In this document: positions 25,483-43,732 of the stretch, one piece after another
How the letters are laid out: each line of letters starts with the position of its first letter
How positions within the stretch are numbered: the first letter of the stretch is position 1
From: Microbacterium sp. AB
GTDB lineage: Bacteria; Actinomycetota; Actinomycetes; Actinomycetales; Microbacteriaceae
Reading direction: 5' to 3'
Length of the DNA stretch: 64,000 nucleotides
Assembly (NCBI RefSeq): GCF_032878875.1
Contig: NZ_CP118157.1
Coordinates: forward strand, 186,001-250,000
Notes under the pieces: model-generated
What the model saw: the letters and a program-made list of their open reading frames with translations, nothing else
Told to the model about the DNA's origin: nothing
Databases searched by the model: none
Translations under genes and position numbers: made by a program

Positions 25483-25676
25483 ACGACGTGCCGGCCGCGC
25501 GGCGGCCTCTCCTCCCCGTCCATGACCCGCGACCCGTCCGTCGCGCGGAGGCGCGGACGACGAAGCATCGCGTTACACGTCGACTCGTGGGGTCATATTC
25601 TCCGTGCCTCGTGCGCGGCCTCCCTACGCTGGCCGCGTCCCCTCCCACCCCCCCCGATTCCTCAGGAGACGCGTCG

Positions 25677-27401
25677 ATGTCGGACCTTCGCACCCCGATC
25701 GAGAGCGGCAAGCCCGCCCGCAGGAGATGGCCGTGGCTCATCGCCGCGGGCGCCGCGGTCGTCGTCGTCGCGGTCGCGATCACCGCGGCGGTGCGCGCAG
25801 GCGCGGGCGCCGGCGCACAGGCGCAGGACGCCGGAGACGGCGCTCCCGTCTCCGGGGGCACCCTCGAGTTCGCGCTGATCGACTACCAGCGCAGCCCCGA
25901 CCCTCACTGGGGCACCAACTACGCCGAGTCGATCGTCGCCGACAACATCACCGACAAGCTGACGTGGCAGGACCCCGACACGGGCGAGATCACGCCCTGG
26001 CTCGCCGAGTCGTGGGAGGTGGACGAGGCGCTGACGGAGTTCACCTTCCATCTCCGCGACGACGTGACCTTCTCCGACGGGACGCCGTTCGACGCCGAAG
26101 CCGTCAAGGCGAACTTCGACCAGTACGTGAACGGCGACGCATCGCTCGGGATCAACCCGAACGGCGCGGTGCTGTTCCCGGGCTACCTCGAGACGGCGGT
26201 GGACGACGAGTTCACCGTCACGGTCCGGTTCTCCCAGCCGAGCGCGAGCTTCCTGCAGGCGTCTTCGTTCACGGCGAACGCCGGCCCGGGCTTCCTGTCG
26301 CCGTCGACGCTCGCCCTGAGCGCGGAGGAGCGCACCGACCCCACGAAGATCATCGGCACGGGGCCGTTCGTGTACGAGGAGTGGACCGAGCAGGTGCGCA
26401 CGGTCCTCGTCAAGCGGGACGGGTACGACTGGGCTCCGCCCGCGATCGATCACGACGGCGAGGCGTACCTCGACCGGATCGTGTTCAACACGATCCCGGA
26501 GTCGAGCGTGAGGACGGGGGCCCTGCAGTCGGGCGAGATCGACGCGACGCTCGACGTGGGGACGACGGACGAGGAGCCCCTCGAGGCCGCCGGATTCGAG
26601 ATCGTCTCGCGCCAGGTCTCGGGGACGGCCATCTTCTTCAACTTCAACACGCAGCTGTTCCCGACGAACGACATCGCGGTGCGCAGGGCCATCCAGCTCG
26701 GATGGGACCGCGACGCGCTCGAGCAGACGGTGCTCACCGACAACTACTCCGTCGCCACCTCCGTGCTCGCAGACTCGGTCCCGGGCTATGCGGACCACAG
26801 CGACACGGTGCTGCGGTACGACCCGGAGGAGGCGAAGAGCATCCTGGAAGAGGCCGGATGGCGGGCCGGAGACGACGGCGTCCGCATCAAGGACGGCGAG
26901 CGCCTCGAGGTGTCGCTCATCGGCATCAGCAACCTCGTGGCGAACAGGCCCGCCTACGAGTCCGTCCAGCAGGACCTCGCCGAGATCGGCATCGACCTGC
27001 AGCTGAACGTCTTGCCGCTGGCGGACTATGCGGCGGCGTCGGCCTCCGCCGTCAGCGACTGGAACATCACCGCCGCGAACCGCTCGCGCAACGACCCCGC
27101 CGTCCTCAACCTGCAGTACAGCCCGATCATCGGCAACGGCTCCTATATCGCGGACGACTTCGAGGGGCGAGACGAGATCGTCGATCGCCTCGGCAGCCTG
27201 GAGCTCACCCTCGATCCCGACGAGCGCACCGCGTACGCCGAGGACGCCCAGGACCTCCTTCTCGAGGAGTACGCCCTCGTGAACCCGGTCTACTACCCGT
27301 CACAGGTCATCGCGCACGCGCCCTCCGTCCACGGCATCATCTTCGACGCGCAGGCGCGGAACCACTTCGTCGACACCTGGAAGGACGACTCCGCCTCGTG
27401 A
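25677..27401 (+). CDS. ABC transporter substrate-binding protein, family 5 (Dpp/Opp type), membrane-anchored
   Basis: A 574-residue extracytoplasmic binding protein. Recognisable segments include GGTLEFALIDYQRSPDPHWG, YAESIVADNITDKLTW, LRDDVTFSDGTPFDAEAVKA and IGTGPFVYEEW. The N-terminus has a basic stretch then one hydrophobic helix (about 20-42), but no lipobox cysteine, so it should be held by an uncleaved anchor. The whole protein has no cysteine and no methionine other than the initiator. It is the first gene of the proposed organosulfur cluster, overlapping the first monooxygenase by 4 bp, and should feed the DppBCDF-type transporter at 35778-39334. AGGAG precedes the ATG. Confidence 0.92.
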   Translation: MSDLRTPIESGKPARRRWPWLIAAGAAVVVVAVAITAAVRAGAGAGAQAQDAGDGAPVSGGTLEFALIDYQRSPDPHWGTNYAESIVADNITDKLTWQDPDTGEITPWLAESWEVDEALTEFTFHLRDDVTFSDGTPFDAEAVKANFDQYVNGDASLGINPNGAVLFPGYLETAVDDEFTVTVRFSQPSASFLQASSFTANAGPGFLSPSTLALSAEERTDPTKIIGTGPFVYEEWTEQVRTVLVKRDGYDWAPPAIDHDGEAYLDRIVFNTIPESSVRTGALQSGEIDATLDVGTTDEEPLEAAGFEIVSRQVSGTAIFFNFNTQLFPTNDIAVRRAIQLGWDRDALEQTVLTDNYSVATSVLADSVPGYADHSDTVLRYDPEEAKSILEEAGWRAGDDGVRIKDGERLEVSLIGISNLVANRPAYESVQQDLAEIGIDLQLNVLPLADYAAASASAVSDWNITAANRSRNDPAVLNLQYSPIIGNGSYIADDFEGRDEIVDRLGSLELTLDPDERTAYAEDAQDLLLEEYALVNPVYYPSQVIAHAPSVHGIIFDAQARNHFVDTWKDDSAS

Positions 27402-28657
27402 GCGAGCCGGCGCGCGAGCTGCATCTCAACGTCAACATCCTCAACGCCGGGGTGTTCGGCGGATCCTGGCGCGTGCCCGAGAACGACCCGCTCTCGGCCT
27501 ACGCGTGGGATCACTACGTCGACATCGCGAAGAAGGCGGAGCTCGCGAGGCTGGATGCGATCTTCCTCGCCGACGGGCCCGGTCTCGAGCCCGACCTCGC
27601 CTACCGCCCCGGCAACGGCTTCGAGCCGAGCGTGCTGCTGGCGCGCATCGCCGCCGAGACCGACCGCATCGGGCTCATCGGGACGTTCTCATCGAGCTAC
27701 AACGACGCCGACGAGCTCGCGGCCCGGCTGGCGGGCATCGACGCGCTCTCCGGCGGCCGACTCGGCTGGAACGTCGTCACGACGGCGGGCGCCGCCGCGG
27801 CGGCGAACTTCGGCCGCCCGGTCGAGCCCGCGCACGCCGCACGATACGCCCGCGCCAGCGACGTCACCGCCCGGGTCATCTCGGTATGGGCGGGGCAGGA
27901 CGGCGTGCCGCGGGTGCCCGCCTCGCCGCAGGGCCGCCCGGTGCTCGTGCAGGCGGGGGCGTCGAAGGACGGGACCCGGCTGGCGGGGGAGCACGCCGAG
28001 GCCGTCTTCACGGCCGCGCAGACGATCGACGAGGCGCTCGCTCTCCGCAGAGCGATCGACGAGCAGGCCGCCGCGTTCGGCCGCCGGCCCGAGCACGTCG
28101 TGATCCTCCCCGGCCTGTCCACCGTGGTGGGGAGCACCGAGGCCGAGGCGCGGGAACGGCGCCGGCTGCTCGCGGATCTCGTGCCGGAGCCGTACGCGCT
28201 CCGCCGCCTCGGCGGGCAGCTGGGCATCGACCTGAGCGCGGTCGACCTCGACGAGGCCGTGCCGCGGGGCGCGTTCCCCGTGCCGGAGCAGGCGGCCGGC
28301 TCGCAGACCTTCTACCGCCTCGTGCTCGGCATCATCGAACGCGACCGGCCGACGTACCGGCAACTGCTGCGCACGCTCGGAGGCGGCGCAGGGCACCGCA
28401 TCGTCGTCGGCACTCCCGAGCAGATCGCCGACGACATCGAGCGGTGGTTCCGAGCCGGCGCCGCAGACGGGTTCAACGTGATGCCCGACGCGCTGCCCAG
28501 CGGGTTCGACCACTTCGCCGAGCAGGTCGTCCCCGAGCTGCAGCGGCGGGGGCTGTTCCGCACCGAGTACGCCGGCGACACCCTGCGCGACCATCTGGGC
28601 CTGCCGGTGCGGGAGCCGCTCCGCGGCTCCCCGCCGGTGCTGTCCGCGACCTGGTGA
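27398..28657 (+). CDS. LLM-class flavin-dependent monooxygenase (NtaA/SnaA/DszA family), short-lid form
   Basis: A 419-residue luciferase-like monooxygenase. Family landmarks are HLNVNILNAGVFGGSWR at the start, LSGGRLGWNVVTTAG (FMN-site region), GRPVLVQAGAS, and the C-terminal phosphate-binding VGTPEQIADDIERWF with DGFNVMP. It would use FMNH2 and O2 to oxidise the imported compound. Compared with the paralogue at 34306 it lacks about 35 residues between VISVWAG and ASPQGRP, the segment that normally covers the active site. The next gene, a shortened homologue, keeps that segment. No cysteine, one internal methionine. GTGA overlap with the binding-protein gene. Confidence 0.9.
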   Translation: MSEPARELHLNVNILNAGVFGGSWRVPENDPLSAYAWDHYVDIAKKAELARLDAIFLADGPGLEPDLAYRPGNGFEPSVLLARIAAETDRIGLIGTFSSSYNDADELAARLAGIDALSGGRLGWNVVTTAGAAAAANFGRPVEPAHAARYARASDVTARVISVWAGQDGVPRVPASPQGRPVLVQAGASKDGTRLAGEHAEAVFTAAQTIDEALALRRAIDEQAAAFGRRPEHVVILPGLSTVVGSTEAEARERRRLLADLVPEPYALRRLGGQLGIDLSAVDLDEAVPRGAFPVPEQAAGSQTFYRLVLGIIERDRPTYRQLLRTLGGGAGHRIVVGTPEQIADDIERWFRAGAADGFNVMPDALPSGFDHFAEQVVPELQRRGLFRTEYAGDTLRDHLGLPVREPLRGSPPVLSATW

Positions 28658-28673
28658 AGAGAGACGCCCCACC

Positions 28674-29555
28674 ATGACCACGAGCACTCCCGTCATCGTG
28701 CAGCTCCCGCTGCCCGGCGCATCCGCCGACCCGCTCCGGGCCGCCGCCTGGACGCGTGACGCCGTCGCGGCCGCCGCCGAGCTCGGTGCGGAGGCGGTCC
28801 TCATCCCGCACGGCGAGGAGCCCGCGCTGGACCCGACGGTCCTGGCCGGGCTGCTCAGCGCCGACGGCATCGACATCCCGCTCATCGTCGAAGCGCGCAC
28901 CGGCGGACACGCGCCCTTCAACCTCGCCCGGCGGCTGCAGACCCTCGCACGCATCACCGGCGGGCGCGCCGGCCTCTACCTCCGCGACACGGGCGTGGAT
29001 CCGGTCACCGCCGCCTCGCGGCCGGGTGCGGCCGCAGCCTCGGCCGTGCTCGGGGAGTACGTCCGCGTGCTCCGTCGTCTGTGGGACAGCTTCCCCGAGT
29101 CCGCGCTCCTGGGCGATCGCGACGCCGGTCTGTTCGCCGACGTCGACCAGATCGCTCCCGCCCGTCATCGGGGCGAGACGTACGGCGTCGAGGGCGCCCT
29201 GAACGTGCCGATCGCGCCGGGTCGGCGCCCCGTCGTCCTCGTCGACGCGGAGTCGCTGGACGGCGATGCCCCCGTCGACGCGGTCGTCTCCCGCACGGGG
29301 ACGCCCCTCGCGGGAGCGTCCTCCTACCGGCCGCTCGTCTGGCGCCCCGCGGCCGTCGACGCCGGCTTCGCGCCCGGGGCCGCACCGCCGTCCGGCGGGG
29401 TGCTGCTGCGCATCGACGCCTCGCCGGCCGAGACCCCCGCCCACCTCGAAGCGGCCCTCGACGCCCTGGTGCACGAGACCGGCCGCGGCGCAGGCCCGGC
29501 CGGCGACGGCGCGCTGCTGCAGCGGCTTCGGACGGCGTCCGCCGCGGCGGCATGA
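28674..29555 (+). CDS. Degenerate LLM-family protein, possible non-catalytic partner
   Basis: A 293-residue relative of the LLM monooxygenases. HAPFNLARRLQTLARITGGR aligns with the FMN-site strand-helix of its neighbours, but the following conserved NVVTT is replaced by LYLRDT. It retains the full insertion segment (WDSFPESALLGDRDAGLFAD, then an HRGE element and VEGALNVP). It lacks the C-terminal VGTPEQIADD phosphate-binding part. It therefore probably cannot bind FMN alone. It lies 16 bp after the full-length LLM at 27398, which lacks exactly that insertion segment, so a LuxAB-like heterodimer is plausible (inference). No cysteine and no internal methionine. Confidence 0.75.
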   Translation: MTTSTPVIVQLPLPGASADPLRAAAWTRDAVAAAAELGAEAVLIPHGEEPALDPTVLAGLLSADGIDIPLIVEARTGGHAPFNLARRLQTLARITGGRAGLYLRDTGVDPVTAASRPGAAAASAVLGEYVRVLRRLWDSFPESALLGDRDAGLFADVDQIAPARHRGETYGVEGALNVPIAPGRRPVVLVDAESLDGDAPVDAVVSRTGTPLAGASSYRPLVWRPAAVDAGFAPGAAPPSGGVLLRIDASPAETPAHLEAALDALVHETGRGAGPAGDGALLQRLRTASAAAA

Positions 29556-29590
29556 CCGGACGACACCACGAGAAGCGAGACGGATCCCGA

Positions 29591-30970
29591 ATGACCGAGA
29601 CTCCCCGCGACGCCCACGAGTTCGGCTTCAGCACCGAGCAGGTGCACGCCGGCTACCTCGGCGAGGCCGGGCACGGCGCCCGCATCACGCCGATCTACCT
29701 CAGCGCGGGGTTCGTCTTCGACGACTTCGAGCACGCCAGGGCCCGCTTCGCCGGCACCGACCCCGGGTACGTGTACTCCCGCATCAACAACCCCACCAAC
29801 GCGGCGGTCGAGAAGCTGCTCGCCGACCTCGAGCACGGCGCGGGCGCGACGCTCGTCGGCAGCGGCCAGGCGGCCGCCACCGTCGCCCTGCTCAGCGTGC
29901 TGAAGGCGGGCGACCACTTCCTCAGCGCCCCCAGCATCTACGAGGGCACGCGGGCGCTGTTCCGCGGCAACTTCGCCCGGTTCGGCATCGAGGTCGAGTT
30001 CGTCGACGACCCGAACGACCCCGCCGACTGGCATCGCCGGGTGCGCGACAACACGCGCCTGTTCTTCGGGGAGGCGATCCCCAACCCGAAGAACGACCTC
30101 ATCGACATCGAGGCGATCGCGACGTCGGCGCACGAGCACGGCGTGCCCTTCGCGATCGACTCGACCGTCCCGACCCCGTACCTGCTGCGGCCGATCGACC
30201 ACGGCGCGGACATCGTGTTCCACTCCACGAGCAAGTTCCTCGCGGGGCACGGCAACTCGATCGGCGGGGTCGTCATCGATGCGGGCCGGTTCGACTGGGC
30301 CGCGCATCCCGACAGCTATCCGCACCTGCACCAGCCGATCTTCGACGACGGCGTGGAGACCGCGACCTGGGTGGACAAGTTCGGCCTCAAGGCCAACTTC
30401 GCGTTCGCCCGCGCGGTCGTCGCCGGCCGGTTCGGCACGAGCCTGTCGCCCTTCAACGCCTTCCTGCTGCAGCAGGGCATCGAGACGCTCTCGCTGCGCC
30501 TGGACCGGCACGCGCGCAACGCGCTCGCGGTGGCGACCTGGCTCGAGCGGCAGCCGGAGGTGTCCGGCGTCGACTACCCCGGCCTGCCGTCCAACCCGTT
30601 CCACGCCCTCGCGCAGAGGTACTACCCGCGCGGGGCGGGGTCCGTGTTCGCGTTCACCCTCGCCGGCGGGCAGGAGGCGGCGAAGACGCTCTACGACGCG
30701 GTCGAGGTGTTCACGCGGATGACCCACATCGGCGACGTCCGCTCGCTGATCCTGCATCCCCCGACGACCACGCACTCCAGGCTCTCCGCAGCGGAGCGCG
30801 AGCAGGCCGGGATCCATCCGGGCCTCATCCGCCTGTCGGTGGGCATCGAGGACGTCGAAGACCTCCTCGCCGACCTCGACCGGGCGTTCCGCGTGCTGCG
30901 CGGCGAGAATCCGCCGTCGCTGCGCGGCGCCGGCGGCGACGCCGAGTTCACGCCGGCGGACGGGCTGTGA
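29591..30970 (+). CDS. O-acetylhomoserine sulfhydrylase-like PLP enzyme (Cys/Met metabolism family)
   Basis: A 459-residue Cys/Met-metabolism PLP enzyme. YVYSRINNPTNAAVEKLLAD, the PLP-phosphate loop LVGSGQAAATVA, and the Schiff-base lysine Lys215 in FHSTSKFLAGHGNSIGG are all present, as is HPPTTTHSRLS near the C-terminus. The length of about 440-460 fits the MetY subfamily, which makes homocysteine or cysteine from O-acetylhomoserine/serine and sulfide or a thiol. In this cluster it would assimilate sulfur released by the monooxygenases, or cleave a C-S bond. One internal methionine, no cysteine. GTGA overlap with the next gene. Confidence 0.88.
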   Translation: MTETPRDAHEFGFSTEQVHAGYLGEAGHGARITPIYLSAGFVFDDFEHARARFAGTDPGYVYSRINNPTNAAVEKLLADLEHGAGATLVGSGQAAATVALLSVLKAGDHFLSAPSIYEGTRALFRGNFARFGIEVEFVDDPNDPADWHRRVRDNTRLFFGEAIPNPKNDLIDIEAIATSAHEHGVPFAIDSTVPTPYLLRPIDHGADIVFHSTSKFLAGHGNSIGGVVIDAGRFDWAAHPDSYPHLHQPIFDDGVETATWVDKFGLKANFAFARAVVAGRFGTSLSPFNAFLLQQGIETLSLRLDRHARNALAVATWLERQPEVSGVDYPGLPSNPFHALAQRYYPRGAGSVFAFTLAGGQEAAKTLYDAVEVFTRMTHIGDVRSLILHPPTTTHSRLSAAEREQAGIHPGLIRLSVGIEDVEDLLADLDRAFRVLRGENPPSLRGAGGDAEFTPADGL

Positions 30971-32148
30971 GCCCGCCCGTGGGGGCTCCGCCGTCGACGG
31001 AGCGGATCCGCGCCGCGATCGCCCCCGTCCTCGACCGGCTTCGTGCGGAGTCGGCGCGGCGAGACGCCGAACGCGAGCATCCGTACGCCGAGATCCGCGA
31101 ACTGGCCGCCGCCGGGGTGCTCCGGTTCCGGATCCCGGCCGCGGACGGCGGGGCGGGCGCGAGCGTCCGTCAGCTCGCGGAGCTGATCATCGACATCGCC
31201 GCCGCGGACCCGAACGTCGCGCAGGCGCTCCGACCGGGCTTCCTCGTCGCCGAGTCGCTCGTCACCGGCGCGCTCGCGGGCGAGGAGCGCCGGGCCGTCC
31301 TGGAGCGGGTGCTGGCGGGAGACCTCTTCGCGGGCACCGTCAACGAGAGCGCGGGCAGGCCGGGCGGGGTGCGGACGCGGCTGGTGCGCGACGAGCACGG
31401 ATGGCGCATCGACGGGCGGAAGTTCTACAGCACCGGCGGGCTGCACGCGCAGTGGTTCTCGGGCACCGCTCTCGACGAGCAGGACCGGATCGTCGGGTTC
31501 ACGGTGCCCACCGACCGGGACGGCGTCGTCCGGCTCGACGACTTCGACGCCATCGGGCAGCGCCTGACCGCGAGCGGAAGCACCCTGCTGCAGGGCGTGC
31601 GCGTCGCACCGGGCGAGCTCGGCGAGCCGGACGCCCGCAAGCGCCATCCGCACGGATCCCTTGCGCACCTCGTCCTCGCGGCCACCCTCGCGGGCATCGC
31701 GGCGGCGGCTCGGCAGGACGCCGTCGACGTGGTCGGCGACGTCGCCCGGCCCATCAAGCACTCGACGGCGACGCGCGCGGCCGACGACCCCTACGTCCGT
31801 CTCGTCGCGGGGCGGATCGCCACCGCGGCGTTCACGGCGCGCGCGCAGGTCGTCGCCGCGGCGGAGGCGCTCGACCGTCACTGGGCGACGGGAGACGAGG
31901 ACACCGCGGTGGGGGCGGTCGTGTCCGTCGCCGAAGCCTACGTCGGGGCGGGGGAGCAGGCCCTGGCGGCGGCGGAGCTGCTGTTCGACGTCGGCGGGGG
32001 GACGCTCACCCGGAGGGATCTCGGCTTGGACCGGCACTGGCGCAACGCCCGCACCATCGCGAACCACAACCCGCGGGGCTGGAAGGCCGCCGCGATCGGC
32101 GCCTGGCTGCTGGCGGGGGAGAGCCCGCCGGCCAACGGTCTGTTCTGA
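30967..32148 (+). CDS. Acyl-CoA dehydrogenase-fold flavin monooxygenase, SfnB/DszC-like
   Basis: A 393-residue protein with the acyl-CoA dehydrogenase fold, including VLRFRIPAADGGAGASVRQL, a beta domain with GWRIDGRKFYSTGGLHAQWF, and a C-terminal helical domain ending LDRHWRNARTIANHNPRGWK. The last motif is typical of SfnB/DszC flavin monooxygenases rather than true dehydrogenases. Relatives oxidise organic sulfides and sulfones with reduced flavin. GTG start within a GTGA overlap with the MetY-like gene. The entire protein lacks cysteine and internal methionine. A second copy of the family is at 41463-42764. Confidence 0.88.
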   Translation: MSPPVGAPPSTERIRAAIAPVLDRLRAESARRDAEREHPYAEIRELAAAGVLRFRIPAADGGAGASVRQLAELIIDIAAADPNVAQALRPGFLVAESLVTGALAGEERRAVLERVLAGDLFAGTVNESAGRPGGVRTRLVRDEHGWRIDGRKFYSTGGLHAQWFSGTALDEQDRIVGFTVPTDRDGVVRLDDFDAIGQRLTASGSTLLQGVRVAPGELGEPDARKRHPHGSLAHLVLAATLAGIAAAARQDAVDVVGDVARPIKHSTATRAADDPYVRLVAGRIATAAFTARAQVVAAAEALDRHWATGDEDTAVGAVVSVAEAYVGAGEQALAAAELLFDVGGGTLTRRDLGLDRHWRNARTIANHNPRGWKAAAIGAWLLAGESPPANGLF

Positions 32149-32204
32149 ACGTCCCGGCACCCGCACCGCCGACCGACCCCCACACCACGAAAGGCGCACA
32201 CACC

Positions 32205-33221
32205 GTGAGCTACCAGCCCTCCGACGACCGCTACGAGAACGTGAGCTGGCGTCGAGCCGGCACGACCGGCCTGACCCTCCCCGAGTTCGCCTTCGGCCTG
32301 TGGCAGAAGTTCGGCGACCGGTCCCCGTTCGAGACGCAGCGCGAGATCGTGCTCGCCGCGTTCGACGCGGGCATCGTCCACTTCGACAACGCGAACCGGT
32401 ACGGTCCGCCTCACCGCGCCGCCGAGAAGAACTTCGGCCGGATCCTGCGCGACGACCTGGGGGCGTGGCGCGAGGAGCTGATCCTGACCACGAAGGCCGG
32501 CAACCCGATCGGCCCGAGCCCGTATCACCGAGGGGGGTCGCGCAAGAACCTGCTGCAGAGTCTCGACCACAGCCTGCGCGACCTCGGCACCGACTACGTC
32601 GACGTGTTCTACTTCCATCATCCCGACCCGGCGGTCCCCCTCGAGGAGACCGTCGGCGCGCTGGCCACGGCCGTGCAGTCCGGCAAGGCCCTGTACGCGG
32701 GCGTCTCGAACTTCTACGACCGTGACGAGGCGCACCGCGCCGCCGCCCTCCTGAAGGACGCGGGGGTGCCGCTCGCCCTGCACCAGTCCCGGTACTCGAT
32801 CTTCGACCGCCGTCTCGAGCTGCAGGACGTGCTGGGACAGTCCGAGCAGGACGGTGTCGGGCTGGTGACCTATTCGCCGCTCGCGCAGGGACTGCTGACC
32901 GACAAGTATCTCGACGGCGTGCCCGCGGGCGCGCGGGCGGTGGACAGCGACTTCCTGTCCACCGCCGACATCACCGAGCAGTACCGGAGGCGGGCCCGGG
33001 CGCTGAACGAGCTGGCCGGCCTGCGCGGCCAGTCCCTCGCCCAGCTGGCGCTGCAGTGGGTGCTGCGCCGCCCCGAGGTGACCAGCGCGCTGATCGGGGC
33101 GAGCTCCGTGGAGCAGCTGCACCACAACCTGAAGGCCCCGGCCTTCGCCCCGCTGACGGAGGAGGAGCTGGCGGTCATCGACACGCACGGCGTGCACGGC
33201 ACAGGGCTGCGGATCGCATGA
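32205..33221 (+). CDS. Aldo/keto reductase (YghZ/Kv-beta-like)
   Basis: A 338-residue aldo/keto reductase barrel. VHFDNANRYGPPHRAAEKNF holds the catalytic Asp and Tyr, the catalytic Lys is in LILTTKAGNPIG, and the catalytic His is in VFYFHHPDP. NADPH-site features LVTYSPLAQGLLT and LIGASSVEQLHHNL follow. GPSPYHRGGSRKNLLQSL resembles the YghZ/Kv-beta branch. Probable role: reducing an aldehyde or ketone left after oxidative C-S cleavage. GTG start, with GAAAGG about 12 bases upstream. No cysteine and no internal methionine. ATGA overlap with the following LLM gene. Confidence 0.9.
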   Translation: MSYQPSDDRYENVSWRRAGTTGLTLPEFAFGLWQKFGDRSPFETQREIVLAAFDAGIVHFDNANRYGPPHRAAEKNFGRILRDDLGAWREELILTTKAGNPIGPSPYHRGGSRKNLLQSLDHSLRDLGTDYVDVFYFHHPDPAVPLEETVGALATAVQSGKALYAGVSNFYDRDEAHRAAALLKDAGVPLALHQSRYSIFDRRLELQDVLGQSEQDGVGLVTYSPLAQGLLTDKYLDGVPAGARAVDSDFLSTADITEQYRRRARALNELAGLRGQSLAQLALQWVLRRPEVTSALIGASSVEQLHHNLKAPAFAPLTEEELAVIDTHGVHGTGLRIA

Positions 33222-35661: not shown

Positions 35662-35777
35662 GGCGCCCGTCATCATGTTTCGCCGGATGGCGATCCGTGA
35701 CGACATGCCGGGCTCCCGGGCCGCGAGTGCCGATACCGTCGCTACCCACCCCGTCCACCGCTCGGAAGAGGACTCCC

Positions 35778-36728
35778 GTGCTCCGCTACGTCGCGCTCAA
35801 GGCCGGCCGGGCGCTGTTCGTGGTCTGGGCCGCGTTCACCCTCACGTTCCTGCTGCTCTTCGTGCTGCCCGCCGATCCCGTCGACCTGCTGTTCGACCCG
35901 GCCGAGCTGGGCACGATCCCGGAGGACGTGCGCGCACAGGTCGCCGCGAACTACGGCTTCGACAAGCCGCTGATCCTGCAGTACCTCGACCGGCTCGCCC
36001 ATGCGGCCGTCGGCGACTTCGGCAACTCCGTGCAGTCGGGGCGGCCCGTGACCCGGGCGCTTCTGGAGGTGCTGCCGAGCACGCTCGTGCTCGCGGTCGG
36101 CGCGCTCCTGCTCGCCGTCCTGATCGGGTTCGCGATCGCGCTCGCCGCCGCCGCCACCCGCCGTCCGTGGCTGCGGAACCTCCTCGAGTCGCTGCCCTCC
36201 GCGTCCGTGTCGGTCCCGGTGTTCATGTTCGGCATCCTCCTGCTGCAGATCTTCTCGTTCACTCTCGGCTGGTTCCCCTCGTTCGGGGACGCGGGATGGC
36301 AGAGCCTCGTCCTGCCGCTCGTCACGCTCGCGATCCCGGTGTCGGGCCCGATCGCGCAGCTCCTCGTCCGGAGCTTCGCGAGCGAGCTGGAGTCGGGCTA
36401 CGTCACGACGAGCCTCGCGAAGGGCGCCACGCGGGGCCGCATCATCGTCGGCGACGTGTTCCGCAACGCGAGCCTGCCCGCGCTGACGATCGCGGGCATC
36501 ACCTTCGGCAACCTCATCGCGGGCTCCGTCATCACCGAGACGGTGTTCGCCCGCCCCGGGATCGGGCGGCTCACGCAGGGGGCCATCAACACCCTCGACG
36601 TGCCGGTCGTCCAGGGCATCGTCGTGCTCGTCGCCGCCAGCTTCGCGCTCATCAACCTCGTCGTCGACCTCGTCTACCCGCTGCTCGACCCGCGCCTGCG
36701 TGCCTCGCTCGCCGCACAGACCGTCTGA
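35778..36728 (+). CDS. ABC transporter permease, DppB type
   Basis: A 316-residue inner-membrane permease with six predicted helices. The first is followed by the periplasmic loop PADPVDLLFDPAELGTIPED, and the coupling motif TSLAKGATRGRIIVGDVFRN is of the EAA type. ITETVFARPGIGRL and LVDLVYPLLDPRLR close the family pattern. It pairs with the DppC-type permease 9 bp downstream. GTG start at 35778 with GGAAGAG upstream. One internal methionine and no cysteine, unusually low for a polytopic membrane protein. Confidence 0.93.
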   Translation: MLRYVALKAGRALFVVWAAFTLTFLLLFVLPADPVDLLFDPAELGTIPEDVRAQVAANYGFDKPLILQYLDRLAHAAVGDFGNSVQSGRPVTRALLEVLPSTLVLAVGALLLAVLIGFAIALAAAATRRPWLRNLLESLPSASVSVPVFMFGILLLQIFSFTLGWFPSFGDAGWQSLVLPLVTLAIPVSGPIAQLLVRSFASELESGYVTTSLAKGATRGRIIVGDVFRNASLPALTIAGITFGNLIAGSVITETVFARPGIGRLTQGAINTLDVPVVQGIVVLVAASFALINLVVDLVYPLLDPRLRASLAAQTV

Positions 36729-36737
36729 GGACCGGAC

Positions 36738-37625
36738 ATGACCATCGAAACCGCTGAGCCCCGCACCTCGCCCGACTCGACGCCGGCCGTCCTCGTCAGG
36801 GGACGGAGCGCGCGGCGCCTGGGCGGGATCCTGCGCCAGCCGGTCCTCGTGCTCGCCTGGGTCGTCGTCCTCGTCGCGATCGGCTGGGCGATCGCCCCCG
36901 GCCTCTTCACGCCGTACAGCCCGTATGCGGGCGACCCCGCCCTGAGCTTCTCGCCGCCGAGCGCCGAGCATCCCTTCGGCACCGACCGGCTGGGGCGCGA
37001 CCTGCTCGCGCGGTCGGTGTACGGAGCGGGCACGACCCTCTCCGCGACCCTGCTCGCCGTCCTCATCGCGTTCGTCGTCGGCACTCTCGTCGGTCTCGTC
37101 GCGGGATACCTCGGGGGCAAGACCGACACGGTCGTCATGCGCGTCATCGACGTCTTCCTGTCCATCCCGAGCCTCCTCCTGGCGATGGTGATCGTCTCCG
37201 TCCTCGGCTACTCGACGCACAACATCGCCCTCGCCGTCGGCATCTCGTCCATCGCCTCGTTCGCACGTGTCATGCGCTCCGAGGTGATCGGCATCGTCGG
37301 CCGCGACTACGTGCGCGCCGCATACGGGCTCGGCGTCAGCCGGATCGGCGTCGTCCTGCGACACGTCGTGCCGAACTCCCTCGGCTCCGTCGTCGCGCTC
37401 GCGGCCCTCGAGATCGGCACCTCGATCATCGCGGTCGCCTCGCTCGGCTTCCTCGGCTACGGCGCCCCTCCGCCCGAGCCGGAATGGGGACTCCTCGTCG
37501 CCGAGGGGCGCGACTACCTGGCCGTCCACCCGTGGATCTCGATCCTGCCGGGCGTCGCCCTCGCCCTCGTGGTGCTCTCCACGCACCGGATCAGCACCTC
37601 CTTCCGAAAGGACCACCGCCGATGA
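36738..37625 (+). CDS. ABC transporter permease, DppC type
   Basis: A 295-residue permease of the DppC/OppC type. After an N-terminal cytoplasmic stretch and first helix it has HPFGTDRLGRDLLARSVYGA, the family hallmark, then the coupling helix AAYGLGVSRIGVVLRHVVPN and FLGYGAPPPEPEWGLLVAEG. It forms the membrane channel with the DppB-type protein. ATGA overlap with the ATPase gene downstream. Three internal methionines, no cysteine. Confidence 0.93.
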   Translation: MTIETAEPRTSPDSTPAVLVRGRSARRLGGILRQPVLVLAWVVVLVAIGWAIAPGLFTPYSPYAGDPALSFSPPSAEHPFGTDRLGRDLLARSVYGAGTTLSATLLAVLIAFVVGTLVGLVAGYLGGKTDTVVMRVIDVFLSIPSLLLAMVIVSVLGYSTHNIALAVGISSIASFARVMRSEVIGIVGRDYVRAAYGLGVSRIGVVLRHVVPNSLGSVVALAALEIGTSIIAVASLGFLGYGAPPPEPEWGLLVAEGRDYLAVHPWISILPGVALALVVLSTHRISTSFRKDHRR

Positions 37626-39334
37626 CCGCCCCGATCGTCGTCGAGGCGCAGGCCGACCTCGCGGAGCCGGCCGAAGCGCTCCTGAGCATCACAGGGCTCG
37701 AGATCGACTACCGTGCCGAGCGGCGCACCTGGGCGCCGGCTGTCCGGGGCGTCGACGTGCGCGTCGACCCGGGGGAGTTCGTCGCGCTGGTGGGGGAGTC
37801 GGGCTCCGGGAAGACGACGCTCGTCCAGGGAGCGCTGGGCCTGCTCCCGTCCGCCGCCCGCATCCGCGGCGGGTCGATCGCGTACTCGGGCGTGGACGTC
37901 ACCGGATGGCCCGATCAGCGGATGGCGCGCGTGCGCGGCAGCTACGTCGGCTTCATCCCGCAGGACCCGGCCACCTCGCTCAACCCCGTCAAGAAGATCG
38001 GCCGGCAGGTCGTCGAGGCCGTCGCGTTCAACGAGTCGCGCACGGCCTCGGCCGAGGAGCATCGCGACGCGGCGCTCGAGAGCCTGCGGACGGCGGGCCT
38101 CGCCGACGCGGGGCGGGTCTTCCACCAGTACCCGCACGAGCTCTCCGGCGGCATGAAGCAGCGCGCCCTCATCGCCATCGCCCTCGCGGGGAAGCCGAGG
38201 ATCATCGTCGCCGACGAGCCGACGAGCGCTCTCGACGTGACGGTGCAGCGACGCATCCTCGACCACCTCGAGCGCCTGCGCCGCGAGCTCGGGATCGGCA
38301 TCCTGCTCGTCACCCACGACCTCGGCGTCGCGCTCGACCGCTCGGACCGCATCCTCGTCATGCAGCGCGGCGAGATCGTCGAGCACGGCGCCGTCCGCGA
38401 CCTCGTCGACAACCCGGCGAGCGCGTACACCCGGAGGCTGCTCGACGCCGCCCCGGCGCGTCACGCCGGACGCCTCGCACCGACCTCCGGCGCCGTCCGG
38501 GAGCCGGGACAGGCGCACGTGCTCCGCGCGGAGGGCCTCGAGAAGCGCTACGTCGCGGGAGCCGGCGGCAAGCGCGCCGTCGTCAGCGCCCTGGACGGCG
38601 TCGCGCTCACCGTGCGCGAGGGCACGACGCACGCGATCGTGGGGGAGTCGGGGGCGGGGAAGTCCACTCTCGCGAGCATCATCGCGGGCTTCGCCTCGCC
38701 CGACGCCGGCACCGTCCACGTCGGCGAACGCGAGATCACGTCGCTCGGGCGGCGGGAGCTGCGCGACGTCCGCCGCGACCTGCAGTTCGTGTTCCAGAAC
38801 CCGTTCACCTCCCTCGACCCGCGATTCACCGTCGGCAAGATCGTCGCCGAGCCGCTCCGGGCCTTCCGGGCGACGGCCTCCCCGGCCGCGCTCGCTGCTC
38901 GCGTGAGCGAGCTGCTGCGAGCGGTGTCCCTCGACGACGGCTACCTGCGCCGGACGCCCGCGCAGCTGTCCGGCGGGCAGCGGCAGCGGGTCGCCATCGC
39001 CCGCGCCCTCGCGCTCAGCCCGCGGATCCTCGTGCTGGACGAGGCCGTGAGCGCGCTGGACGTGTCGGTGCAGGCGCAGATCCTGCAGCTGCTCGTCGAC
39101 CTTCAGGCGGAGCTCGGGCTGAGCTACGTGTTCGTCACGCACGACCTCGGCGTGGTGCGGCTCATCGCCGACGACGTCACCGTGATGAAGGACGGCGCCG
39201 TCGTCGAGACGGGGCCCGCCGCCGAGGTGTTCGCCGCGCCTCGGCACGAGTACACGCGGACGCTTCTCGACGCCATCCCCGGCACCCGTCGCGTCGTCGA
39301 CACCCCGTTCCACCCGGCAGGAGACCTCCCATGA
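37622..39334 (+). CDS. Fused double ATP-binding protein of the oligopeptide-type ABC transporter (DppD-DppF fusion)
   Basis: A 570-residue protein carrying two complete ATPase domains. The first (about 20-280) has Walker A GESGSGKTT, signature ELSGGMKQR and Walker [13 protein letters not shown]. The second (about 305-560) has Walker A GESGAGKST, signature QLSGGQRQR and Walker B ILVLDEAVSALD. This replaces separate DppD and DppF and matches the two permeases directly upstream. With the binding protein at 25677 it makes a complete importer. Four internal methionines, no cysteine in 570 residues. Confidence 0.95.
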   Translation: MTAPIVVEAQADLAEPAEALLSITGLEIDYRAERRTWAPAVRGVDVRVDPGEFVALVGESGSGKTTLVQGALGLLPSAARIRGGSIAYSGVDVTGWPDQRMARVRGSYVGFIPQDPATSLNPVKKIGRQVVEAVAFNESRTASAEEHRDAALESLRTAGLADAGRVFHQYPHELSGGMKQRALIAIALAGKPRIIVADEPTSALDVTVQRRILDHLERLRRELGIGILLVTHDLGVALDRSDRILVMQRGEIVEHGAVRDLVDNPASAYTRRLLDAAPARHAGRLAPTSGAVREPGQAHVLRAEGLEKRYVAGAGGKRAVVSALDGVALTVREGTTHAIVGESGAGKSTLASIIAGFASPDAGTVHVGEREITSLGRRELRDVRRDLQFVFQNPFTSLDPRFTVGKIVAEPLRAFRATASPAALAARVSELLRAVSLDDGYLRRTPAQLSGGQRQRVAIARALALSPRILVLDEAVSALDVSVQAQILQLLVDLQAELGLSYVFVTHDLGVVRLIADDVTVMKDGAVVETGPAAEVFAAPRHEYTRTLLDAIPGTRRVVDTPFHPAGDLP

Positions 39335-40176
39335 CGCATCCGCGGCCCCTCATCGCTCTCGTGGGCGACCTCCCCGCCCTGCTGCGCTCGGGGGACCCGG
39401 GGCTCCTGTCGGAGCTGCGGCGTGCGGCGGATGTCGTGGGCGCCGTGGTCGTCGGAGCCGGGGGCCGCCCGCAGCAGCTGGACCCCGTGGCGGCGGCGAC
39501 GTCGCTGACCGTCCGTGCGCCGGGGCTTCCCGCGCTCGTCTCGTCGGACGGCCTCCGCGATGCGCCGTACAACGCCGCGCGGCGCTTCCTCTCGCTCGAC
39601 CATCTCAGCGGGGCGCGCAGCGGCGTGGTCTTCCGATCCGGAGACGGCGACGCGGAGCGGACGGCGGAGCGCATCCGCGTGATCCGCGCGCTCTGGAACT
39701 CGTGGCCGGTCGAGACCCTGCTGGCCGACCGCGAGCGCGGCGTCTACGCGACGACGGACGGCATCCGGCGGATCGAGCACGACGGGGAGCACTACCGGGT
39801 CGCGGGCGCGCTCAACACGCCCACGAGCCGTCAGGCCGAGCCGGTGTCCCTCTGGCATGTGACGTCGGAGGCCGAGCTCGCCGCCGCAGGGGGCCTCGTG
39901 GACCTCGTCGTCGTCGATGACGCCGCGCTCGCGGACGCCTGGGCGGGGTCGGAGGCCGAGGGCCGGCCGGGCCTCGTCTCGGCGGGCGTCGAGCGGGAGG
40001 ATGCGGCGCTCTCGCTCGTCCGCGTGGAGTCGCTGCCGGCGTTGCAGGACGTGCTGGACGCGGCGCGGCCGCTCGAACCCGGCGTGCTCTCGGGGACGCT
40101 GCGCGCGCGGCTCGGCCTCCCCGAGCGCCGATACGACCTGACGGACAAGCCCCTCGCCTTCGGAGGCGCACGATGA
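39331..40176 (+). CDS. Degenerate LLM-family protein, possible non-catalytic partner
   Basis: A 281-residue shortened LLM relative. APYNAARRFLSLDHLSGARS aligns with the FMN-site region of the full-length enzymes, but their NVVTT strand is replaced by GVVFRSG. The insertion segment is fully kept (WNSWPVETLLADRERGVYAT, then EHDGEHYRVAGALNTP). The C-terminal tail LSGTLRARLGLPER resembles the tail of the active paralogues, while the VGTPEQIADD phosphate site is gone. It overlaps the ATPase gene and the full-length LLM at 40173 by 4 bp each. The arrangement mirrors the 27398/28674 pair in reverse order. No cysteine, no internal methionine. Confidence 0.75.
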   Translation: MTHPRPLIALVGDLPALLRSGDPGLLSELRRAADVVGAVVVGAGGRPQQLDPVAAATSLTVRAPGLPALVSSDGLRDAPYNAARRFLSLDHLSGARSGVVFRSGDGDAERTAERIRVIRALWNSWPVETLLADRERGVYATTDGIRRIEHDGEHYRVAGALNTPTSRQAEPVSLWHVTSEAELAAAGGLVDLVVVDDAALADAWAGSEAEGRPGLVSAGVEREDAALSLVRVESLPALQDVLDAARPLEPGVLSGTLRARLGLPERRYDLTDKPLAFGGAR

Positions 40177-41444
40177 CCGACCGCACCGACCACCTCACGC
40201 TCAACGTCAACCTCCAGGCCTTCGGGCAGCGGCCGGCCGCCTGGCAGTTCGGCGACCACGACGCCGACACCCTCATCCGCCCGGAGCACTGGATCGCATC
40301 CGCGAAGGCGGCCGAGCGCGGCCTCCTCGACGCGGTCTTCTTCGCCGATCAGCCCGCCCTCCACAATCCCGATCCGCGTCCCGGAGCGCAGCTGGAGCCC
40401 ATCGCGCTCGCGGCGCTCCTCACCGCCGCGACCGAGCACGTCGGCGTGATCGCCTCCGCATCGACCACGTACAACGACCCCGTGGAGCTGGCCGAACGAC
40501 TGCTCGGCACCGACGTCGTGACGGGCGGCCGGCTGGGATGGAACATCGTCACGACGTACAACCCCGCCGTGTCGGGGAACTTCGGCGTGGACGCGAACCC
40601 CGACCGCGCGACCCGCTACGAGCGCGCCGGCGAGTTCGTCGACGCCGTCAAGACGGTCTGGGCCGGAGCCGCGGGAGACGGCGGCTTCCGCTTCGACGGG
40701 GAGCACTTCCGCTTCGAGGGCGTCACGGCCGTCCCGCCGTCGGCGCAGGGAACGCCCGTCCTGTTCCAGGCCGGCGGGAGCGCGCAGGGGCGCGACCTGG
40801 CGGCTCGCCACGCCGAGGGCGTGTTCGCCGTCGAGCTGACGCTGCCGCGCGCGATCGAGAACTACGCGGACCTCACGCGCCGCGCGGCCGCGCTCGGACG
40901 CCGCCCGGGCCTGCCGAGGATCACCCCCGGTCTCTCGCTCGTCATCGGCAGCACGGTCGAGGAGGCGCGACGCCGGTTCGACGACTTCGAATCGCGGGTG
41001 CCCGACAGCTACGCGCTCGGATCGCTCAGCAACGTCATCGCGCACGACGCGAGGACGCTCGACCTCGACGCGCCGATCCCCGCCGACATCCTCGACAAGC
41101 CCTGGAACCCCGACGAGCATCCGACGTCGGCGGGCTACCGCCTCACCTTCCTCGACTGGATCCAGGAGCGCCGCCAGCAGACCGTGCGCGAGATCCTGCG
41201 GGACTTCGGAGGGTACGGCGCGCGCATCGTCATCGGCACCCCGGAGCAGATCGCCGACGACATGGAGCTCTGGTTCCGCTCCCGTGCGGCCGACGGCTTC
41301 AACCTCATGATCGACCACTTCCCCGACGGGCTCGTCGCCTTCGCCGACGAGGTCGCGCCGCTGCTGCAGCGGAAGGGCATCCACAAGCGCGAGTACGACC
41401 ACACGACGCTGCGCGAGGTGATCGGCGCCGGGACCGCCGGATGA
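40173..41444 (+). CDS. LLM-class flavin-dependent monooxygenase (NtaA/SnaA/DszA family), shortened-lid form
   Basis: A 423-residue monooxygenase with LTLNVNLQAFGQRPAAWQF, SASTTYNDPVELAERLLGTD, VTGGRLGWNIVTTYNPAVSG, TPVLFQAGGSAQGRDLA and the phosphate-binding end VIGTPEQIADDMELWF with DGFNLMIDHF. Between VKTVWAG and VPPSAQG it has only about 18 residues, compared with nearly 40 in the paralogue at 34306. Its coupled upstream neighbour (39331) retains the long version. Two internal methionines, no cysteine. It ends the plus-strand run, 18 bp from the convergent SfnB-like gene. Confidence 0.9.
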   Translation: MTDRTDHLTLNVNLQAFGQRPAAWQFGDHDADTLIRPEHWIASAKAAERGLLDAVFFADQPALHNPDPRPGAQLEPIALAALLTAATEHVGVIASASTTYNDPVELAERLLGTDVVTGGRLGWNIVTTYNPAVSGNFGVDANPDRATRYERAGEFVDAVKTVWAGAAGDGGFRFDGEHFRFEGVTAVPPSAQGTPVLFQAGGSAQGRDLAARHAEGVFAVELTLPRAIENYADLTRRAAALGRRPGLPRITPGLSLVIGSTVEEARRRFDDFESRVPDSYALGSLSNVIAHDARTLDLDAPIPADILDKPWNPDEHPTSAGYRLTFLDWIQERRQQTVREILRDFGGYGARIVIGTPEQIADDMELWFRSRAADGFNLMIDHFPDGLVAFADEVAPLLQRKGIHKREYDHTTLREVIGAGTAG

Positions 41445-41462
41445 GCGGGGCCCCGCCCGTCC

Positions 41463-42764
41463 CTACTCGCCGGGGCGGAACGGCGGCACCTCCGACGGTG
41501 CTCCGTCCGCGTCGAAGGGCGAGAACGGGCTGCCGTAGAAGCGCCCGTTGACGAGGTAGTCGCCGAGCAGCCGGGGCTTCACCGCCACCGGGTTGTGGGA
41601 GGCGATCGTGCGGGCGTTGCGCCAGTGCCTGTCGAGCGCCTTGCCGGCGTCGGTCAGGCTCGCGCCGGCGGCGTCGAACAGCCGGGTGGTCGCCTCCAGC
41701 GCGGTCTCGATCACCGCGACCTGGTTCGCGAGCGTGTAGACGCTGAGCCTCTCGTACGGTTCGCGGTCGCCGTCCCGGAGGAAGAGCGCGTTCGCGTGCT
41801 CCAGGACGTCGGCCGCCGTGCGCACGAGGCTCTGCGCCGTGACGTACGACACGGAGAGCGACCCGACCACGTCGAGCGCGTGATCGCCGAAGGCCTCCTT
41901 CCTCGGCGGCCGAGACACGTTGAGCGCGATCGCCTCGTCGAGGACCTCCCTCGTGATCCCCGAGAGCGTCGCGAGGTGGTAGAGCTGCACGAAGCTCTGG
42001 TGCTGGGCGACCTCCTGGTCGATCGGGATGATCCCGAGCGGATGGACCCGCGCCTCCGAGAGGAGGGTGCTGCCGCTCGCCGACGTGCGCTGGCCGAAGC
42101 CGCGCCAGTCGTCCGCGCGCTCCACGCCGGGCTGGTCCGTGGGGACGATCGCCCAGACCGGGCGCCCGTCCTCGTCCTCGGCCGAGGCGCGGATGTAGTC
42201 CGCGTACAGCGATCCGCTCGAGTAGTACTTGCGTCCCGAGACGACCCACTCGCCCGACGCCGTCCGCCGGGCCGTGGTCACGGGGGCACCCGGGGCGGAG
42301 GTCTGCGCGTTGCCGAAGACCCTCCCCGACACGATCTCCGCCGTCCAGTGCGCTCGCGCCTCAGGGGAGACGTCCGGCTGATGGCGCAGCACCTCGATGA
42401 AGCTGAGATGCCCCCGCAGGGCGTTCGCGACGCCGGGATCGGCGGCGCCCAGATCGGCGAGCAGGGCGAACAGGTCGACGAGCGGGATGTCGATGCCTCC
42501 GTCGGCCTCGGCGACCCGCAGCCGCGTGAACCCGGAGGCGATCAGCGCTGTGATGCCCGCCGTCTGCCGCCCGCCCGTCCTGTCGGCGTCCGCGGCGTCG
42601 TGCCGGATGATCGAGAAGGCGTCGGCGAACCGTGCCCGGAGGTCCCCGAGACGCCCGGAGCCGCGTGCCTCGGCGAGCTCGTCGAGGCCGATGCGCCGGG
42701 ACGCCTGTCGCCGCCCGAAGACGGGCGCCGCGGGCGACGCCGGCTCGACTGCTCCGGTGCTCAT
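41463..42764 (-). CDS. Acyl-CoA dehydrogenase-fold flavin monooxygenase, SfnB-like
   Basis: A 433-residue SfnB/DszC-type protein, convergent with the plus-strand cluster. It shows ASGFTRLRVAEADGGIDIPL, GNAQTSAPGAPVTTARRTAS, GEWVVSGRKYYSSGSLYADY, FGQRTSASGSTLLSEARVHP and the terminal LDRHWRNARTIASHNPVAVK shared with the other family member at 30967. SfnB-like enzymes are linked to sulfone and alkanesulfonate use under sulfur limitation. The protein has no cysteine and no methionine except the initiator, which ties it to the same sulfur-poor set despite the opposite orientation. AGAGGAA precedes the ATG at 42764. Confidence 0.88.
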   Translation of the reverse strand: MSTGAVEPASPAAPVFGRRQASRRIGLDELAEARGSGRLGDLRARFADAFSIIRHDAADADRTGGRQTAGITALIASGFTRLRVAEADGGIDIPLVDLFALLADLGAADPGVANALRGHLSFIEVLRHQPDVSPEARAHWTAEIVSGRVFGNAQTSAPGAPVTTARRTASGEWVVSGRKYYSSGSLYADYIRASAEDEDGRPVWAIVPTDQPGVERADDWRGFGQRTSASGSTLLSEARVHPLGIIPIDQEVAQHQSFVQLYHLATLSGITREVLDEAIALNVSRPPRKEAFGDHALDVVGSLSVSYVTAQSLVRTAADVLEHANALFLRDGDREPYERLSVYTLANQVAVIETALEATTRLFDAAGASLTDAGKALDRHWRNARTIASHNPVAVKPRLLGDYLVNGRFYGSPFSPFDADGAPSEVPPFRPGE

Positions 42765-43628: not shown

Positions 43629-43732
43629 GTGCGCTCGTTCCTCTTGTTACGGGGAGGGAAAATCATCCGCCCGTTGTTGCGTATATGTCTTGTATACCGC
43701 AAGTATGTGAAGATCCCGATTGGAGCGAACAC
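43629..43732. promoter_or_regulatory. Divergent promoter region with GntR-type operator candidate
   Basis: This AT-rich gap between DUF2848 and the transporter contains CTTGTATACCGCAAG (43689-43703), a CTTG/CAAG-bounded site with core TGTATAC. The same core recurs at 45754 in front of the GntR gene. FCD-type GntR repressors commonly bind TTGTATACAA-like sequences, so this is a probable operator. Confidence 0.55.

Follow-up and report, generated by a model that had tools for sequence, protein, structure and literature searches.

Why should fourteen neighbouring genes of one bacterium encode proteins that contain not a single cysteine and hardly any methionine? The genes lie at positions 25677-42764 of a 64,000-nucleotide stretch of the genome of Microbacterium sp. 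AB (assembly GCF_032878875.1, contig NZ_CP118157.1, positions 186,001 to 250,000 of the forward strand; this whole stretch is called the window below) and include the components of an ABC transporter, a series of luciferase-like monooxygenase (LLM) proteins and a MetY-type sulfhydrylase. We regard it as likely that they form an organosulfur-scavenging cluster purged of sulfur amino acids, whose proteins would be needed in quantity under sulfur shortage. The depletion is specific to the sulfur-containing residues and to the coding frame, is conserved over actinobacterial genera and is absent from the flanking genes; therefore, sustained selection for sulfur sparing is by far the best reading of it. 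Open reading frames were listed and genes called by a custom script trained on codon use, which gave the following features.

25483..25676, plus strand: presumed promoter region of the 13-gene plus-strand run; no shared motif established.
25677..27401, plus strand: ABC substrate-binding protein (SBP; SBP_bac_5, best NCBIfam match TIGR04028, under cut-off); 574 amino acids (aa), no Cys, no internal Met; lipobox absent, predicted N-terminal signal anchor with a transmembrane segment at about residues 21-39.
27398..28657, plus strand: LLM1, NtaA/DmoA-family monooxygenase dependent on flavin mononucleotide (FMN); 419 aa, 1 Met (M362); 7 of 7 FMN-site residues present.
28674..29555, plus strand: LLMsh1, short LLM-like protein; 293 aa, no Cys, no internal Met; without FMN-site residues, predicted partner subunit of LLM1.
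29591..30970, plus strand: MetY-type O-acetylhomoserine sulfhydrylase (Cys_Met_Meta_PP); 459 aa, 1 Met.
30967..32148, plus strand: SfnB1, SfnB/DszC-like oxidoreductase with acyl-CoA-dehydrogenase fold; 393 aa, no Cys, no internal Met.
32205..33221, plus strand: aldo/keto reductase (AKR); 338 aa, no Cys, no internal Met.
33275..34309, plus strand: LLM2k, LLM closest to TIGR04027 (KPN_01858 family, under cut-off); 344 aa, no Cys, no internal Met.
34306..35661, plus strand: LLM3, NtaA/DmoA-family monooxygenase; 451 aa, 2 Met.
35778..36728, plus strand: ABC permease B (Opp/Nik type); 316 aa, 1 Met.
36738..37625, plus strand: ABC permease C (Opp/Nik type); 295 aa, 3 Met.
37622..39334, plus strand: ABC ATPase, fused two-domain (Opp DF type); 570 aa, 4 Met.
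39331..40176, plus strand: LLMsh2, second short LLM-like protein; 281 aa, no Cys, no internal Met; weak Pfam match under cut-off, predicted partner of LLM4.
40173..41444, plus strand: LLM4, NtaA/DmoA-family monooxygenase; 423 aa, 2 Met.
41463..42764, minus strand: SfnB2, second SfnB/DszC-like oxidoreductase; 433 aa, no Cys, no internal Met.

On our own gene calls the fourteen proteins comprise 5,589 residues with no cysteine and 14 internal methionines, the latter confined to the seven proteins indicated in the list. An earlier note on this DNA, which put the total at about 5,608 residues, agrees with these counts, and also in giving about 15 internal methionines for DnaB, which is encoded from position 7550 and has 15 of them and 1 cysteine in 459 residues. 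Sixty stretches of 20 kb, sampled systematically and amounting to a third of the genome, served as background; their 1,005 proteins no shorter than 100 aa contain 0.456% Cys and 1.34% Met, so that 25.5 cysteines and 74.8 methionines would be expected in the cluster. With the genes treated as independent, the combined beta-binomial probability of the set is 2e-8 and that of fourteen Cys-free proteins together is 10^-7.8. Seven of the 14 cluster proteins contain neither cysteine nor internal methionine, as compared to 15 of the 697 sampled proteins of at least 250 aa (P 3e-8). The cluster also shows the lowest Cys+Met content (0.27%, median 1.59%) of 541 overlapping segments of 5,000 residues, which cover 1.613 Mb (44%) of the 3.64-Mb single-contig genome and include 20 stretches picked mainly for LLM genes; within the systematic third only (194 segments), the minimum is 0.52%, in the LLM/ABC locus at 121-138 kb, followed by 1.05%. 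It is moreover the longest run of Cys-free genes in the examined stretches, with 14 genes as compared to 9 in the runner-up, and it is bordered by proteins of ordinary composition (3 Cys and 5 Met in the 466 aa encoded at 24082-25482 upstream, 1 Cys and 2 Met in the 229 aa encoded at 42939-43628 downstream). The earlier note had taken the loss of cysteine as a sign of strong selection. Cysteine absence alone is weaker evidence than was implied there, since 193 of the 697 long proteins are Cys-free as well, and much of the signal is carried by methionine; the specificity, frame dependence and conservation of the depletion nevertheless speak for selection.

How specific is the depletion? The ratio between cluster and background sample is 0.00 for Cys and 0.19 for Met and lies between 0.74 and 1.25 for every other residue, that of Val being 0.86, likewise under all 59 background blocks. 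Across the other five reading frames the ratios of ATG and TGY range from 0.64 to 1.45. As the depletion is found in the coding frame and not in the other five, the signal sits in the proteins rather than in the DNA, and the residue ratios together with the frame comparison rule out an artefact of composition, GC content (73.0% in the cluster versus 71.9%) or reading frame. A further feature may concern the initiator methionine: the second residue is Ser or Thr in 12 of the 14 cluster proteins as compared to 44% across the genes of the examined stretches, which is suggestive of a bias towards N-terminal Met excision.

The depletion extends to relatives of the cluster. A search with LLM2k found 1,352 homologs. 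Of the 120 that were listed (59-90% identity), 105 are free of Cys, 104 have no internal Met and 91 are without either. Among named genomes the nearest homologs come from Microbacterium. Likewise, 108 of the 120 listed MetY homologs and 103 of the 120 listed ATPase homologs are Cys-free (both lists include the cluster's own protein), with Met contents of 0.51% and 0.74%, respectively. A scan of named genomes with LLM2k-derived patterns, themselves without Cys and Met, yielded 45 mutually related loci, all of them actinobacterial as far as their titles tell. The 364 ortholog genes in these loci (at least 38% identity over half coverage) have 0.042% Cys and 0.324% Met, as compared to 0.701% and 1.408% in 248 flanking genes that encode 100 aa or more and do not resemble the cluster genes. 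The cluster is below its flanks in all 32 loci that had three or more ortholog genes and three or more flanking genes (the other 13 of the 45 were left out). SBP is Cys-free in 23 of 23 orthologs, LLM1 in 37 of 37 and AKR in 36 of 37. A second, divergent AKR-like gene, about 32-37% identical to the first, stands beside it in many of the relative loci (L089-L094, L097, L098 and others), whereas the window has one only.

Which methionines have then been retained? Ten of the 14 are invariant among the orthologs, in alignments that include the window's own row and hold few rows for MetY and LLM4: LLM1 M362 (37/37), LLM3 M390 (30/30), LLM4 M379 (6/6), MetY M377 (5/5), permease C M134, M150 and M179 (25/25) and ATPase M178, M247 and M522 (24/24). 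M178 of the ATPase lies in SGGM, which we take to be the ABC signature. Three others are found in most rows (ATPase M101, 21/24; LLM3 M11, 21/30; LLM4 M364, 4/6), and M150 of permease B is present in only 5 of 25 rows. Selection has thus left few methionines beyond the ortholog-invariant ones (4 of the 14). The column of LLM1 M362 is not Met in the three solved relatives compared, as read by eye from the alignment, and this residue would therefore appear to be a constant of the family rather than of the superfamily.

As to function, the profile matches show six LLM-family and two SfnB-like proteins together with a transporter, an AKR and MetY, a gene content that fits sulfur scavenging. LLM1, LLM3 and LLM4 pass the cut-off of the NtaA/DmoA family model TIGR03860 (279.7 bits) with 381.5, 428.2 and 361.4 bits, and the two short LLMs miss it with 85.7 and 82.1 bits. 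The cluster MetY passes TIGR01326 (O-acetylhomoserine/O-acetylserine sulfhydrylase, MetY; cut-off 495.1 bits) with 497.9 bits. The proteins encoded at 30967 and 41463 score 271.6 and 210.3 bits with the SfnB equivalog TIGR04022 (cut-off 430.9 bits) and are thus SfnB-like rather than SfnB, and LLM2k and SBP reach 249.3 and 355.4 bits with TIGR04027 and TIGR04028, below the respective cut-offs of 412.9 and 468.5 bits. In the pathway that we propose, an organosulfur compound would be imported by the membrane-anchored SBP and the Opp-type transporter, and its sulfur would be oxidised by the SfnB/DszC-like flavin oxidoreductases. The C-S bond may then be cut by the NtaA/DmoA (DszA-like) LLMs, two of which would act with a short LLM subunit lacking an FMN site, to yield sulfite or a small sulfur species. 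A carbonyl product would pass to the AKR, and reduced sulfur would be converted to homocysteine via MetY. Expression of the cluster would be expected to rise under sulfur limitation. This gene content fits the sulfur role which the earlier note had assigned to the LLM, SfnB and MetY genes; the composition of MetY, however, lends that role no independent support, as discussed below.

The short LLMs, LLMsh1 and LLMsh2, match the NtaA/DmoA model over part of its length only. A structure model of LLMsh1 (mean pLDDT 86.7) resembles a partial LLM barrel with TM-scores of about 0.5, and a profile built from 37 short LLMs matches chain 7e36_A over its full length (E 5e-48), with LLM1 and LLM4 matching 7e36_B. 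According to the parts of PMC8027225 consulted here, NtfO1 and NtfO2 form a heterodimer, and NgnO1 or NgnO2 is inactive singly; mutating seven residues at the FMN site of NtfO2 reduces or abolishes activity. From the title of the entry and the matching residues, chains A and B of 7e36 would correspond to NtfO1 and NtfO2; the consulted part of the paper gives the entry as 7C2R. When the seven sites are mapped via 7e36_B, all are retained in LLM1; LLM3 and LLM4 retain them too if K or R may replace H and S may replace T. Allowing S/T, H/K/R and F/Y, all seven are present in 74 of 76 full-length LLM rows. Among the 37 short LLM rows none is left in 32, one in 4 and two in 1, showing loss of the FMN site. 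A short LLM directly follows LLM1 in 32 of 36 cases. We therefore predict from these sequence comparisons that LLM1-LLMsh1 and LLMsh2-LLM4 are heterodimers. They would resemble the StmO1-StmO2 and NtfO1-NtfO2 pairs (PDB 7e36) in combining a shorter LLM with a full NtaA-family LLM, but the known pair, as described in the consulted sections of PMC8027225, hydroxylates an antibiotic intermediate, whereas the predicted pairs belong to a sulfur cluster.

SBP differs from its paralogues at the N-terminus. It begins with MSDL..IE..RRRWPW, followed by hydrophobic residues 21-39 (mean hydropathy 2.7), and as there is no Cys in its 574 aa it has no lipobox cysteine. A lipobox-like Cys is present in 13 of the 14 SBP paralogues in the examined stretches; the remaining one, at the border of a stretch, was called with its start truncated. 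A start similar to that of SBP is present in the called proteins of six relative loci (L090, L091, L092, L104, L105, L107), was recognised by eye in the upstream DNA of five more (L089, L098, L099, L110, L132) and is more divergent in L115; the remaining ortholog SBP calls are cut or start late. It appears that a Cys-free signal anchor replaces lipidation of SBP, and if this is true, it would suggest that the way in which a binding protein is held in the membrane can be rewired to save one sulfur atom. Beyond this, we lean, if only just, towards the view that the entire pathway from import to homocysteine lies near its functional sulfur floor, having no Cys, little beyond family-invariant Met and a lipoprotein anchor swapped for a Cys-free signal anchor, all kept across actinobacterial genera, and that, since near-zero content also marks other LLM/ABC loci of this genome, a large sulfur-limitation regulon could be predicted from DNA sequence by Cys+Met content alone.

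But could the cluster not simply have inherited its composition from families whose structure or history keeps Cys and Met scarce, without any sparing selection of its own? All eight full-length PF01053 proteins of the genome, the family of MetY, are Cys-free with 0-3 Met, and of the 10 SfnB-like proteins examined (among 12 matches) eight have counts of 0-2, one of 4 in 388 aa and one of 5 in 679 aa; both families are low genome-wide and therefore do not discriminate cluster from family. The near-zero content of LLM2k homologs across the 120 listed would also agree with family inheritance. However, the depletion jointly affects unrelated folds (SBP, permeases, ATPase, LLM, AKR, acyl-CoA-dehydrogenase fold and pyridoxal phosphate enzyme), and paralogues in the same genome are not bound to it. 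The 37 LLM paralogues in the examined stretches, which were partly chosen for LLM genes, range from 0 to 2.7% Cys+Met, and the 11 among them without Cys or internal Met are every one located within low-sulfur stretches. In the same stretches permease paralogues reach 3.3% and fused Opp-type ATPases range from 0.36 to 3.6%, with three others at 2.4-3.6% as compared to 0.7% in the cluster. That ten of the 14 leftover methionines stand at invariant sites, and that 13 of the 14 SBP paralogues have kept their lipobox-like Cys, argues in the same direction, and we consider family inheritance unlikely. Shedding of oxidisable Cys and Met by flavin monooxygenases that leak peroxide would be in line with the eight LLM-family and SfnB-like proteins of the cluster, but it would not readily explain why SBP, AKR and MetY, which are no flavin monooxygenases, have 0, 0 and 1 such residues, nor why seven LLM of the same genome (examined stretches) contain 2% or more; we give this explanation hardly any credence.

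An origin from a Cys/Met-poor donor, or the high GC content as such, has next to no probability in our view. The cluster is patchy and perhaps mobile, as a close SBP (68-80% identity) is found in only 2 of 198 genus and 5 of 299 family genomes, own genome included, and its GC content exceeds that of the sample. Ile, Phe and Asn are normal, however, and Lys (0.74) is just slightly reduced; in every one of the 32 hosts tested the flanks exceed the cluster in Cys and Met, and there is no comparable depletion in the other five frames, which refutes this explanation if the frame test is accepted. A cluster for the acquisition of nitrogen or chelates rather than sulfur might be suspected from the NtaA/DmoA assignment of the LLMs, from the nitrilotriacetate and ethylenediaminetetraacetate monooxygenases among their closest solved structures and from the transporter, which matches nickel/oligopeptide families. 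Yet the solved matches include DszA- and DmoA-type enzymes too, MetY and two SfnB/DszC-like proteins are encoded in the same run and strong depletion is restricted to the sulfur residues, so that we judge such a function very unlikely. Several observations nonetheless weigh against sustained sulfur-sparing selection on a sulfur cluster. Besides the behaviour of the PF01053 and SfnB-like families, single cluster proteins are only moderately low: ranked one by one in the systematic third, they fall at percentiles 4.5 to 26 (length-aware beta-binomial P 0.005 to 0.34), and it is jointly that they take the lowest place. Permease C and the ATPase retain 1.0% and 0.7% Cys+Met, inside the range of some paralogues. 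Neither a regulator nor a flavin reductase was found among the 14 cluster genes, and a promoter motif shared by 21 upstream regions of low-sulfur genes was not established after a length-matched control. The 45 relative loci, having been found via LLM2k, are no phylogenetically independent trials. Finally, Ssu/Tau-type sulfonate genes on one Rhizobium plasmid are undepleted (1.81% versus 1.70% in their flanks), and sulfur function is thus not always accompanied by depletion.

Sulfur sparing as a principle is already reported. Section 11 of PMC8557817 describes sulfur-starvation proteins of another actinobacterium, Rhodococcus qingshengii IGTS8, that are poor in Cys and Met, among them MetY, SfnG and Dsz enzymes, the induced MetY having 0 Cys and one Met. 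These are selected proteins of one strain, whereas the cluster described here is a contiguous 14-gene run including a transporter, compared with its genome and 45 loci and near the floor set by conserved Met. In Gordonia, SfnB, an NtaA/DmoA monooxygenase and O-acetylhomoserine sulfhydrylase are up on dibenzothiophene versus sulfate (PMC11852219, Table 3), and in strain NB4-1Y two genes resembling nitrilotriacetate monooxygenase are on with fluorotelomer sulfur sources and hardly with MgSO4 (PMC7661421, in the parts consulted); both sets are likened to the window genes by gene class rather than by orthology. With 4S (Dsz)/Sfn desulfurization the cluster shares DszA-like (NtaA/DmoA) LLMs and DszC/SfnB-like oxidoreductases; it differs in having a transporter, MetY and AKR, no DszB-type protein among the 14 and scores below the SfnB equivalog cut-off. 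Clusters of the KPN_01854-01858 type (TIGR04027/TIGR04028) likewise combine SBP, two permeases, a fused ATPase and an LLM, but contain CMD and alkylhydroperoxidase-domain genes, which are absent here, and lack the additional NtaA/DmoA LLMs, short LLMs, SfnB-like genes, AKR and MetY. In four of the listed proteobacterial plasmid matches of this type, for which cluster and flank genes were hand-chosen from annotation, Cys+Met is 0.49% versus 3.2% in the flanks in Roseateles and 0.41% versus 4.0% in Paracoccus (three genes), with a weaker contrast in Rhizobium (0.80% versus 1.7%) and Variovorax (1.27% versus 2.28%). Searches of open-access papers, judged by their listings, showed nothing closer than the Rhodococcus, Gordonia and heterodimer work cited. 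The cluster-wide, conserved near-floor extent of the depletion, the floor of retained Met, the altered anchor and the predicted pairing of LLMs seem to be new. Whereas sulfur sparing has so far, in the literature consulted, been described for selected single proteins, the cluster would extend it to a multi-gene pathway. A conserved and nearly sulfur-free pathway provides a measure of how far the cost of an element shapes protein sequence, its proteins are a natural set that exposes the few indispensable methionines, and candidate genes for sulfur limitation could be listed from sequence in organisms never grown under such conditions.

Is the cluster alone in its genome? The earlier note had held that the composition marks the borders of the regulon. 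Six further Cys/Met-poor stretches, which are the next lowest (93.7-111, 121-138, 3289-3306, 2955-2971, 435-452 and 460-476 kb), do not bear this out, and the borders are those of the cluster only. Of the six, the systematic stretches contain 121-138 kb in full and the other five to 0 to 35%; as these five were chosen wholly or mostly for LLM genes, their richness in LLM is partly due to choice, but their low content is not. The six stretches (L069, L070, L011, L016, L074, L075, L058, L080, L083, L064) carry LLM, binding-protein and ABC genes and are candidate members of the same sulfur-limitation set. One run, at genome positions 2962602-2970090 (L080), resembles the KPN_01854-01858 type, with SBP, two permeases, ATPase, LLM and two small proteins, and is Cys/Met-poor too. 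The luciferase-like monooxygenase family has 50 matches in 3.64 Mb, seemingly many, some genes apparently being split into two matches.

The motif analysis mentioned above listed 23 upstream regions, two of them outside the examined stretches. In its first run a 16-mer reached a log-likelihood of 71.6 as compared to at most 61.9 in eight nulls and a palindromic 20-mer 45.3 as compared to at most 43.9, two other forms not exceeding the nulls. In a second run, which used additional restarts and 28 nulls matched in length, the 16-mer (73.4; null mean 65.5, sd 5.9, maximum 78.5) was rejected; an 18-mer in this run had no control. A genome search for TauD gave no match at E 0.001.

Reduced flavin for the monooxygenases might come from elsewhere in the genome. 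An azoreductase encoded at 49086-49727 (0 Cys, 0 internal Met) was not adopted as the flavin reductase of the cluster; of 36 matches to it 25 were examined, its own included, and all 25 are Cys-free with 0-6 Met, seven without Met, and it is present in 33 of 150 family genomes, mostly irrespective of the cluster. Three PF01613 flavin reductases occur in the genome, none in the cluster. The longest (324 aa) has 2 Cys and 5 Met, whereas those of 192 and 191 aa have 1 Cys each and 1 and 0 Met, respectively; these two are lowish in Cys and Met and are candidate suppliers. A 177-aa protein without Cys or internal Met (L148, 2075-2608) adjoins a PF01613 flavin reductase and, judged by eye from its start, may be another flavin reductase.

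Adjoining the cluster, the window encodes at 42939-45684 a DUF2848 protein, an MHS-type transporter whose 450 aa include 3 Met, and a GntR/FCD regulator. Finally, a long, near-perfect inverted repeat, noticed by eye at genome positions 3298431-3298528 between two convergent low-sulfur genes, is probably a terminator.

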